Part shown: in pieces, positions 59,864 to 63,123 of the stretch | How positions within the stretch are numbered: position 1 is the stretch's first letter | Layout: each line of letters begins with the position of its first letter | NCBI RefSeq assembly: GCF_031202265.1 | Contig: NZ_CP100604.1 | Span: 1,532,501-1,596,500, forward strand | From: Bradyrhizobium sp. Ash2021 | GTDB lineage: Bacteria; Pseudomonadota; Alphaproteobacteria; Rhizobiales; Xanthobacteraceae | Reading direction: 5' to 3' | Length of the DNA stretch: 64,000 nt | Made by a program: the position numbers and the translations under genes | The notes under the pieces: model-generated | What the model was told of the DNA's origin: nothing | Seen by the model: the letters and a program-made list of their open reading frames with translations, nothing else | The model's database searches: none

Positions 59864-60571
59864 TCAATTGTGCGGCGGGCAAACGCGCGTCGCGTCTTGA
59901 TCGGAGATCTGCAGCTCAGGATCCGTGAATCGCACGAAATTTGCGACTTCATCATGCTCTTTTGGATAACGAATTGAGGGCGGGATCACGCTGTCCCAAT
60001 AGGCTGCTGCTTTGCGGGAATCCCATCCCGCTGTGCCGCAAAATTGAGCGAGCGCGGTCGCCGAGATAAAACCCGAAGCGTGCAGGCCATACCAGCAATG
60101 GACGTACATCGCCCCCTTATCCTGAGTGATGATGTCATGCAATTTGACGAAGACCTGTTTCAAGGCCACACGGTTGTCCCACTGGTGATAGTCATATTGC
60201 AGCGAATTGGCGCCGCAACTGACATTCTCGGTGCCATTCCATCCGGTTCGATACGCGTACACCGCTTGCGAAAAGCCGGCTTTGCATAGCGCCTGGAGAG
60301 ATTGATTTTGAAGCGGCCGCCGGGGTCCATCGACGCTCGCGCGCGGGCCTTCCGTGCCACCGCGATAAAGGACTCCGGGCATGACGACCCGGAAGTGCGT
60401 GAGTCCGACGCCGCCCCCAACCGGGAAGAGTTTTTCCTTCGTCATGTCGGCGTCTTCCGTTCCCGCGGGCGGCGCAAGGGCGCCAACTCCGACTGCGGGT
60501 TGCGCAAGGGCGCCAACTCCAAATAACAAACCCAAAAACAGCACTGAAAAAAATCCGGCGATTTTGCACAT
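59864..60571 (-). CDS. Secreted dual-specificity-phosphatase-like protein lacking the loop Arg
   Basis: 235 residues. The signal peptide (about 1-24) is followed by two tandem decamers (GVGALAQPAV, GVGALAPPAG). VMPGVLYRGG (64-72) is the DSP/PTP-like start. The phosphatase loop position is VHCWYGLHASG with Cys159, but +6 is Ala165 instead of Arg, so ordinary PTP catalysis is doubtful; it may bind phosphopeptides or use altered chemistry. Last gene of a three-gene minus-strand set with the two kinase-like proteins. Confidence 0.7.
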   Translation of the reverse strand: MCKIAGFFSVLFLGLLFGVGALAQPAVGVGALAPPAGTEDADMTKEKLFPVGGGVGLTHFRVVMPGVLYRGGTEGPRASVDGPRRPLQNQSLQALCKAGFSQAVYAYRTGWNGTENVSCGANSLQYDYHQWDNRVALKQVFVKLHDIITQDKGAMYVHCWYGLHASGFISATALAQFCGTAGWDSRKAAAYWDSVIPPSIRYPKEHDEVANFVRFTDPELQISDQDATRVCPPHN

Positions 60572-60633
60572 TGCGTCCTCCGAATGTTAATTGGGCAGGC
60601 AATTGCACGCTGTTGTGACCGTGGAGATCATCG

Positions 60634-61695
60634 TCAACCGACCTCAAAGTTTCCGCGAGCAAGTTCGAGATAGGCCTTGGCGACCGGTGCCGTTGCATTG
60701 TGGAACGCGTCGGCGTCCTTTTCGACGACGGCGCGGTAGGGAGCCGCTTCGGCCTGGCGTCCATGCGCCAGACCCAGCACATTGGCGTCGTAACGCGCGA
60801 TATCATCCAGCCAGGCGATATCGCTGCTTTTTTCGCTCGAATAGGGCAGGTCGATGAGTGACACGTGCTTTTCACGAATCCAGTACAGGCCGGCACCGGG
60901 AAGCTCGACAAGGTCATAGGCAGAGCCATCCAGGCCTGGCCAGAATGTCCGGCGAACCTCGTTCAGCCATTCATGAACCGGGGGCTGAGCCCGGTAGTTG
61001 GCAATCGCAGGCTTGCTGTACTGCTTCAACTCGACGATGCGCCGGGATTTCTGCTGTTCGACCAGGACCCAGATGCGCAGCTGATCGACACTCCCGCCAC
61101 GTTCTTCGGGCCGGATTGCCAGATCGATGACTTTCTCGGTGGGAAACAGCCGTTCGATCGTGGCGCGGGCAATCTTCGCGTTGTACTGCTCAATCTTACC
61201 CTTTCTGAATACAAAGCCGTGTTTGGAAGAGTTTTTCTCGACGTACCGCCTCGCCATGTCGTCATAGTCGGAGACCGGCATGGCCAGCAGCGATCGCACC
61301 GCCTTTGGCGGATCCAGCGCTTTGCCCGCGATGCCCGCAAGATAGCTTGCTTCCAGCGGACGCTTCTTGATTTGCCCGCCGATGGATTTTGCAGCGATCA
61401 GGTAGCGAATGATGTCCAGTACGAACGGTCCGCGGCCGGCATCGTCAAAGTCGATGTCGGCATATCTCATCTGCCGTGATCCGCCCACCTGCTTCAGAGG
61501 CAGCACCGAGAAATTGCCCATGTGCGGGTCGCCGCTGACGATCCCTTCGAACGGAAGATATGGCTTCAGGCTGCTCAGATCCGCCCGATGTTTCATGTAG
61601 GTCCAATAGTGCGGCGTATTGCTGCGGATCAGTTGCGAAAGGTTTTTGGACACTTCGACCTGATCGAATTGAGCGCTGGTGGCGTTCGTGCCCAT
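60634..61695 (-). CDS. DUF2252-like protein with kinase-type phosphotransferase motifs
   Basis: 353 residues from ATG 61695 (a TTG at 61749 would add 18). GIVSGDPHMGNFSVL (Asp56, His58, Asn61) is like the catalytic HGDxHxxN loop of APH-type kinases, and YADIDFDDAGRGPFVLDIIR (79-97) is the metal-binding DxD. The rest is helical and lacks a signal. It lies 72 bases after the secreted kinase-like gene and 62 bases before the phosphatase-like gene. Function unknown; phosphotransfer inferred from motifs. Confidence 0.72.
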   Translation of the reverse strand: MGTNATSAQFDQVEVSKNLSQLIRSNTPHYWTYMKHRADLSSLKPYLPFEGIVSGDPHMGNFSVLPLKQVGGSRQMRYADIDFDDAGRGPFVLDIIRYLIAAKSIGGQIKKRPLEASYLAGIAGKALDPPKAVRSLLAMPVSDYDDMARRYVEKNSSKHGFVFRKGKIEQYNAKIARATIERLFPTEKVIDLAIRPEERGGSVDQLRIWVLVEQQKSRRIVELKQYSKPAIANYRAQPPVHEWLNEVRRTFWPGLDGSAYDLVELPGAGLYWIREKHVSLIDLPYSSEKSSDIAWLDDIARYDANVLGLAHGRQAEAAPYRAVVEKDADAFHNATAPVAKAYLELARGNFEVG

Positions 61696-61767
61696 GGCCT
61701 GGTTCCCACGTTTTCTCGCCGGCGGTCTCGCAAGCACATCTTGCTTCAAGTGACCGCTGCCGAAGCG

Positions 61768-63123
61768 TCAGAGGTCGCAACTCTGCGCTTTCAAGGGTTG
61801 AGTCGAAAAGTGTGTCTGAAGATCCAGATCGAGCTTCAGCCGGCCTTGCAGGCAGGTTTGATGCAGCTTGGTCGCAAGATCCTTCAGGTTCTTGCGCACG
61901 GCCGCATAATCATTGGCGGTGAAAACCAGTTCCTGAACGAAGAACTCTCTAGTCTCTGCAGCATCGGCAATAGCGTCCAAACGCAGAATGAGGCGATAGG
62001 TCGCCGGATCGATGTGTGCAATACGATCGGCGAGGCCCGCTTGCTTTGCGATATTATCCTTGGCGACGCCGCAGTCATTATCCTTCAGGAGCATTTTCTT
62101 GACCTGAACGGCGCCAAGCCGCGCAGCCTCGTCGGGAGCCAGGCTCTTGCTCGACTTCAGTTTGGCGCTGCCGTCCGGGTTCAGATCGTTGGCATCGCGA
62201 TAATAATAGGTCTGGAGATCGTGAATATTGCCGAAGCGGTCTTGCTGGTTCATGAGGGTGTCGATCACGATCAGGTCCGCAGCATCCTTGAGCTGCACCA
62301 TCTTCTGAACATTTTCGGTCGTGAAGTCCCGTCCCACCAGCGTACTGATGTCCGGGTTGCGGGCCAGCATTCCGACGATCGGGTTCGCGTTGCGAAAGTT
62401 CTGCGCGCGCGCAACATTGTTTGCGCCACCGTTGAAGAACTCCTTGTAGAACTCTTCTTTCGTCGGGTTCTCGCTGAGCGCGCCATAGGATTGGGCAAAA
62501 TCGTCGGTGAGCAGGAAGTCCCGTCTGCCGGCTGCGGCGCCGGCCGTCAACTGCGCCATCAGGCCTGCCCAGGTTTGATGGATGAGCGTGCCCGATTTGG
62601 TCTGGTCCAGGGCTTTGTGACCGAGCGCAATGTGATTTTTCAGGTCGAACGTGCGCAGAACCGTCGGCGGAACGTCGCCGATGCCGCCAAGCATGCGCGA
62701 GATGTGATAATAGCCCAGGATGGACGGCGTATAGCTGCAGCTCGTGCTGAGCTTGTATTTGGCGATCTTCTTGGCGCCCGATGCCTCGCAACGCGCCGCG
62801 ACGTCGTCACGGGCGACACCTTGAGGAAGCGAATAAAAATCGAGGCCCGGGTTCGTGCTGTTGAGTTTCGGACAGACTGCGGCGTTCGAATTCCCGTCGA
62901 TATTGCAAAGCCTGGTCTCGACCTCGGTGTCCTTGTCGGAATATTCGCCGCCTGCGAAATGCCTGGGGATGACGCAGACCTCGGCATTCCGGCCTGCCAC
63001 CGGCAGATCCACGATCTTCTCGCCGCGCTGAAGGTGGGCCGATAAAGTGGCATCGGCGACCGACGGACCAAGGAACGCGCCCGACAAGAGCAGAAGCTGG
63101 GTCAGACGAACCACTCGCCTCAT
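61768..63123 (-). CDS. Secreted protein with FAM20/VLK-like atypical kinase motifs
   Basis: 451 residues, ATG 63123 with GGAGAAG upstream. A signal peptide ends about SVADA (residue 25). Residues 121-160 (AKYKLSTS, SILGYYHISRMLGGIGDVPPTV) resemble the ion-pair and N-lobe end of FAM20-type kinases. IDTLMNQQDRFGNIHD (288-302) resembles their catalytic loop (DxLxxNxDRHxxN), and LLKDNDCGV (345-353) is a metal-binding DFG-like segment. Eight or so cysteines fit an exported fold. I know of no matching bacterial description; assignment is by pattern and needs structure prediction. Confidence 0.55.
   Translation of the reverse strand: MRRVVRLTQLLLLSGAFLGPSVADATLSAHLQRGEKIVDLPVAGRNAEVCVIPRHFAGGEYSDKDTEVETRLCNIDGNSNAAVCPKLNSTNPGLDFYSLPQGVARDDVAARCEASGAKKIAKYKLSTSCSYTPSILGYYHISRMLGGIGDVPPTVLRTFDLKNHIALGHKALDQTKSGTLIHQTWAGLMAQLTAGAAAGRRDFLLTDDFAQSYGALSENPTKEEFYKEFFNGGANNVARAQNFRNANPIVGMLARNPDISTLVGRDFTTENVQKMVQLKDAADLIVIDTLMNQQDRFGNIHDLQTYYYRDANDLNPDGSAKLKSSKSLAPDEAARLGAVQVKKMLLKDNDCGVAKDNIAKQAGLADRIAHIDPATYRLILRLDAIADAAETREFFVQELVFTANDYAAVRKNLKDLATKLHQTCLQGRLKLDLDLQTHFSTQPLKAQSCDL

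Follow-up and report, generated by a model that had tools for sequence, protein, structure and literature searches.

Three consecutive minus-strand genes, here called K, D and P, form a small locus in the 9.7 Mb genome of Bradyrhizobium sp. Ash2021. They lie in the window, i.e., the whole 64,000-nucleotide stretch of DNA that was analysed (contig NZ_CP100604.1, positions 1,532,501 to 1,596,500); coordinates given without a locus name are positions in this window. K is likely but not proven to be a FAM20-like protein, as judged from profile alignments. P has a dual-specificity phosphatase (DSP) fold, and its P-loop lacks the arginine. D matches the DUF2252 family. K and P are the constant core of the locus, D is accessory, and a further protein, K2, co-occurs with them. 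Our reading, held tentatively and at somewhat less than even confidence, is that the locus is a module of sporadic occurrence, probably spread horizontally, which serves phosphorylation outside the cytoplasm; in it, K would write or recognise the mark, P would read it or regulate K, and D would be optional. FAM20 kinases have been described as enzymes of the animal secretory pathway, and an exported bacterial FAM20-like family would bear on the family's origin. With a co-inherited phosphatase-fold partner, such a family would demonstrate that phosphorylation by exported proteins arose or spread among bacteria. The findings suggest that animal-like phosphorylation of molecules outside the cell may occur in some bacteria.

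All three open reading frames (ORFs) are where a previous, sequence-only reading of this DNA put them. The gaps it gave also agree: K is 72 bases from D (counted to the ATG at 61695), and D is 62 bases from P. The motifs that it quoted are present, namely IDTLMNQQDRFGN and LLKDNDCG in K, GDPHMGN and DIDFDD in D, and VMPGVLYRGG and HCWYGLHASG in P. As it had said of signal peptides, the N-termini of K and P are signal-peptide-like by eye. The features are as follows, all on the minus strand.

61768..63123, minus strand: K, an apparently exported FAM20-like kinase or pseudokinase, 451 residues from ATG (ORF; homologues in 7 loci; FAM20 profile alignment).
63052..63123, minus strand: signal-peptide-like N-terminus of K, about residues 1–24, as read from the sequence.
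62752..62769, minus strand: K residues 119–124 (KIAKYK), with K119, A121 and K124 invariant in 8/8 sequences; presumed site of a candidate ATP lysine.
62644..62709, minus strand: K residues 139–160, start of the helix-C/VPP segment (hhalign to FAM20; the aligned stretch reaches about residue 170).
62224..62262, minus strand: K residues 288–300 (DTLMNQQDRFGNI), catalytic-loop-like (alignment to FAM20C; invariance in 8/8).
62074..62082, minus strand: K residues 348–350 (DND), metal-binding-like, invariant in 8/8; putative equivalent of the FAM20 'LDNG', matched by eye.
60634..61695, minus strand: D, a divergent DUF2252 phosphotransferase-like protein, 353 residues from ATG (PF10009 match; homologues in loci L002 and L031).
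61513..61533, minus strand: GDPHMGN of D, inside the PF10009 match, GDPH[MI]GN in 3/3; we take it to be an APH-type catalytic loop.
61441..61458, minus strand: DIDFDD of D, presumably metal-binding-like; IDFDD is kept in 3/3, and L031 has N for the first D.
59864..60571, minus strand: P, an apparently exported DSP-fold protein, 235 residues from ATG (ORF; DSP fold).
60071..60100, minus strand: P-loop HCWYGLHASG of P, in which the catalytic Cys159 is kept and the Arg position, 165, is Ala (8/8 homologues).

Because the AlphaFold model of K is poor (predicted local distance difference test score, pLDDT, 39.7, with 7 sequences), K was compared to FAM20 by profiles. The FAM20 profile consisted of four sequences taken from a PDB search and ran from helix C onwards. 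Significance was assessed by column shuffles, 200 for comparisons with FAM20 and 100 for those with HipA. The best alignment places K 278–296 on FAM20C segment positions 132–150, the catalytic part (ILDVMDMTIFDFLMGNMDR), with a score of 26.8 that was reached by 0/200 shuffles, the top shuffle being close at 26.5. When K 110–260 was aligned alone, residues ~139–170 fell on FAM20 positions 6–36 (hhalign score 20.0; 0/200 shuffles; top shuffle 19.9). From residue 320 on, K 371–383 aligned to FAM20 194–206 with a score of 16.3, which was reached by 11/200 shuffles and is thus not significant but collinear. These sub-regions were picked after the resemblance had been noticed, hence the tests are not blind. 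The FAM20 segment order, helix-C FHLDR..L...VPP and then catalytic D..L.GN.DR, is kept in K. As controls, the profiles of P, D, a neighbouring D-amino-acid-oxidase-like protein (DAO), reversed K and reversed K2 scored 12.3–15.8 against FAM20. Another control family, HipA, was represented by 9 sequences (PF07804); a set of 3 badly chosen sequences had failed altogether. FAM20 scored 29.3 against it at the catalytic motif (0/100 shuffles). K showed no profile similarity to these sequences, its score being reached by 43/100 shuffles, and K2 likewise was not above shuffles (54/100).

K-type genes were found in 7 distinct loci, yielding the 8 sequences on which motif invariance is based. The catalytic-loop-like stretch has D288, Q293, Q294, D295, R296, G298, N299 and I300 invariant in all eight, and the lysine, the catalytic Asp and the DND motif stay invariant down to 27% identity. 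The quoted motifs are more than chance, as their residues are invariant across the K-type loci and across the 8 loci with P, and the K motif region beats all 200 shuffles, if narrowly. The FAM20-like features that had been proposed for K are supported by the alignment and by these residues. The cysteines C50, C73, C84 and C424, invariant across 7 aligned sequences, would fit an oxidising compartment.

K resembles FAM20C, FAM20A and FAM20B in being apparently exported and in having FHLDRIL..VPP and D.L.GN.DR-type motifs in the same order. It differs in being bacterial, in the spacing from DR to DN (53 residues, as against ~20 in FAM20C, counted by eye), and in failing to match PF06702, to which no match was found in any of 7 K members at E up to 10 or in the window's genome at E 0.01. 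The helix-C glutamate of FAM20 binds metal. No Glu or Asp is found in K 126–140, the columns opposite helix C in an alignment made from sequences alone, with a FAM20 profile that begins at helix C. In place of that glutamate, the pseudokinase FAM20A has Gln258, according to PMC7948968, which also gives the range of FAM20 as sponge to mammals. PMC9758233 places FAM20 among eukaryote- or Metazoa-specific clusters and groups four Legionella families with FAM20/CotH. The words bacteria and prokaryot are absent from the text of PMC5865150. No account of this gene set was found in the titles and abstract starts of literature on FAM20, DUF2252 and novel or bacterial kinase-like families, a coverage outside which most subscription papers lie.

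Several of these points weigh against our reading, the missing acidic residue among them. One alternative is that K is no kinase, its motif likeness being convergent or due to chance, and that K and P make up another kind of envelope complex. There is no fold evidence for K: in a Foldseek search with the poor model, DrFam20C1 ranked second, its probability of 0.51 being the highest among the 50 matches listed, but at E 2.4. Neither K nor P matches a family above cut-off in Pfam or NCBIfam. The alignments are shallow, with narrow margins over the best shuffle, and K has a weak match to CopK. Nevertheless, two collinear segments at functionally equivalent places each beat 200/200 shuffles, and HipA gives no match to K. 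We hold this alternative to be unlikely.

P shares its fold and its catalytic Cys with DUSP23/VHZ and with the plant and fungal PFA-DSP/Siw14 proteins. In the homologues from L006 and L031, sub-threshold phosphatase matches surround the HC motif (Tc-R-P, E 0.0004; DSPc, E 0.0013), and Y_phosphatase3 (E 0.00055) is a further weak sub-threshold match around this motif of a P homologue. Unlike atypical dual-specificity phosphatases, P has Ala in place of the P-loop Arg, a signal-peptide-like N-terminus, and the extra cysteines C96, C119, C178 and C231, conserved in 6/6. All 8 homologues read HCW[YN]G[LIY]HA[ST]G and so depart from the HCx5R signature of the DSP/PTP superfamily. Of the secreted phosphatase-like protein that had been proposed, the DSP fold stands, whereas active dephosphorylation is doubtful, the Arg being absent throughout. 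With the catalytic Cys kept and the Arg replaced by Ala, P is more likely a reader or regulator than an ordinary phosphatase. The broader suggestion that the set adds, reads or removes phosphate is retained, as a proposal, for addition by K and reading by P; removal by P is doubtful, and K shows no acidic helix-C residue.

The absence of an acidic helix-C residue in K and of the P-loop Arg in P speaks for another alternative, in which K and P are both catalytically dead, a pseudokinase and a pseudophosphatase forming an exported binding or scaffolding pair, with K2 as the active kinase. FAM20A, which reportedly binds and regulates FAM20C, would be the precedent. K2 was found in 6/7 genome handles, query genome included, corresponding to 5/6 distinct K genomes (G206 and G494 share a locus), and in 2/102 genomes of the genus, both of them K genomes; the search left out G982. 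The K2 profile aligns to FAM20 at EIAAFNL / EIAAFHL (score 26.1; 0/200 shuffles; top shuffle 21.7). E134 is invariant in 5/5 sequences, and 5/5 K2 members have no Pfam family. In the two unlinked copies, the stretch aligned to FAM20 reads EIGASQL and EIGAFQL. Against this alternative, the search of the Methylococcales genome gave no K2, the copy in the window's genome lies apart from K, and the invariance of the Lys, the catalytic Asp and the DND motif in K speaks against a dead K. This is a close rival of the module proposed above, and we judge it rather unlikely.

Returning to that module, K would be exported, would have a FAM20-type atypical kinase fold, and would phosphorylate a periplasmic or surface substrate, or recognise it if inactive. 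P would be its exported partner, binding and reading the phosphorylated product or regulating K. The simplest joint reading would be that phosphate chemistry takes place outside the cytoplasm, with K and/or K2 as writer and P as reader. A more specific version, in which exported K and K2 place the mark on a glycan or protein of the envelope in a bacterial FAM20-type cycle and the Arg-less DSP-fold protein reads it, so that FAM20-type phosphorylation outside the cell would extend beyond animals, strikes us as improbable. That the substrate is a glycan or of peptidoglycan type is a guess from the neighbours. The genes of the trio are compact and open to laboratory testing.

D is the only one of the three with a curated family. 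Its PF10009 match, searched from a TTG start, scores 34.2 bits against a cut-off of 22.3, bearing out the DUF2252 assignment made earlier; the L031 homologue scores 25.6 bits against the same cut-off. The start affects the length, which is 353 residues from the ATG at 61695 or 371 from the TTG at 61749. Homologues of D are found in L002 (92% identity) and L031 (59%). Like DUF2252 proteins, D has GDPHMGN and DIDFDD; unlike typical members, it gives a partial, divergent match in two stretches, the best covering 42–90 of the 392 profile positions. As a family, DUF2252 is described in PMC9758233 as a kinase fold with flipped N- and C-lobes, i.e., a swapped lobe order. No signal peptide is visible in D by eye, so it would not act directly on the periplasmic targets that had been suggested for the set. 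D may instead be an optional cytosolic phosphotransferase that prepares the same substrate before export.

K-type genes are in the window, L002, L003, L004, L005 (the same locus as L007/G206), L006 (K and K′) and L031 (K′), with K′ at L006 1443–2900 and L031 717–2234. P is present at all seven, adjoining the K-type gene or parted from it by D alone, whereas D is at three (the window, L002 and L031) and was not found in whole-genome searches of G490, G492, G493, G494 and G047. The gene orders are K-D-P (window, L002), P-K (L003, L004, L005), P-K′-K (L006) and DAO-D-P-K′ (L031); D, P and a K homologue are thus together again in L031, in another order. The genes thus do co-occur in related genomes, against what would have refuted the earlier reading: every K-type locus found carries P, and 3/7 carry D.

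P occurs in 6/213 genomes of the genus and K in 5/213, with both in 5, presuming that the two 213-genome draws, made with the same settings, are identical. Fisher's test gives 1.7e-9, uncorrected for relatedness, and overstates the evidence for linkage, given overlapping genome sets and relatedness among the genomes. D occurs in 3/209, all three being K and P genomes. Elsewhere, K is rare: 1/100 relatives, 2/398 genomes in the phylum, 1/289 in the class and 1/201 in the order of the Methylococcales genome, each count including the genome on which the search was centred. In the named collection, its relatives are four Bradyrhizobium records and one Methylococcales metagenome-assembled genome (MAG); the locus of one of these Bradyrhizobium records is also in G206, which belongs to the same genus as the window. 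The trio's GC content is 0.573–0.583, compared with 0.627 for the window, 0.653 and 0.669 for the two left-hand genes compared and 0.522 for the right-hand gene.

On the Methylococcales MAG contig, P, a divergent K′ and K lie in a row (L006 79–4272). A YkuD-domain gene precedes them on the other strand, and later genes look methylotroph-like by eye, so the likely explanation seems to be transfer between classes and not misbinning. The sixth P of the genus (L032 7039–7848, in G047) is divergent (HCWNGYHASG) and has no K match. Its neighbour is a PG_binding_1 protein that also matches CHAP weakly; transposase-like ORFs are near (by eye).

The neighbours bear on one further alternative, that the cell exports K and P as effectors meant to act in a plant or protist host and not on its own envelope. 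Bradyrhizobium is a largely plant-associated genus, FAM20 and DSP are eukaryote-type folds, and both N-termini are signal-peptide-like. Against this, some neighbours at other loci are envelope-related (YkuD, PG_binding_1, CHAP-like), one locus is in the Methylococcales MAG, and no secretion genes were recognised by eye in those parts of the flanks that were listed. We regard host effectors as very unlikely.

In L003–L005, K2 is a second protein with a signal-peptide-like start, convergent to P-K. Upstream of it is a small gene without a visible signal peptide (L004 8796–9272, L003 8655–9185, L005 8795–9271), of which the L004 copy, the one searched against Pfam, matches His_Phos_1 of the histidine phosphatase superfamily (23.7 bits; cut-off 21.7). 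K2 would thus have a phosphatase-type neighbour too. The unlinked K2 copies are at L017 6564–7727 (C1:1334614-1335723 of the window's genome) and L018 6324–7490. The former is ~260 kb from K, near lytic transglycosylase-like and serine hydrolase-like genes (by eye).

A 507-codon antisense open frame (61522–63045), opposite the bulk of K and the beginning of D, is probably a side effect of the codon bias of GC-rich DNA.

The DAO gene, encoding a flavin adenine dinucleotide (FAD) enzyme, lies beside P-K or D-P-K′ (L004 3740–4828, L031 4333–5385), and similar genes are seen by eye at L003 3936–5024 and L005 3919–5007. No title in the literature searched fitted a circularly permuted D-amino acid oxidase. 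From its profile matches, the DAO-like enzyme appears to be a circular permutation. In L004, its N-terminal 78 residues correspond to profile positions 303–350 of 353 (E 1.3e-5) and residues 82–334 match 1–298, and in L031, residues 83–333 match 2–302, with a second stretch in addition.
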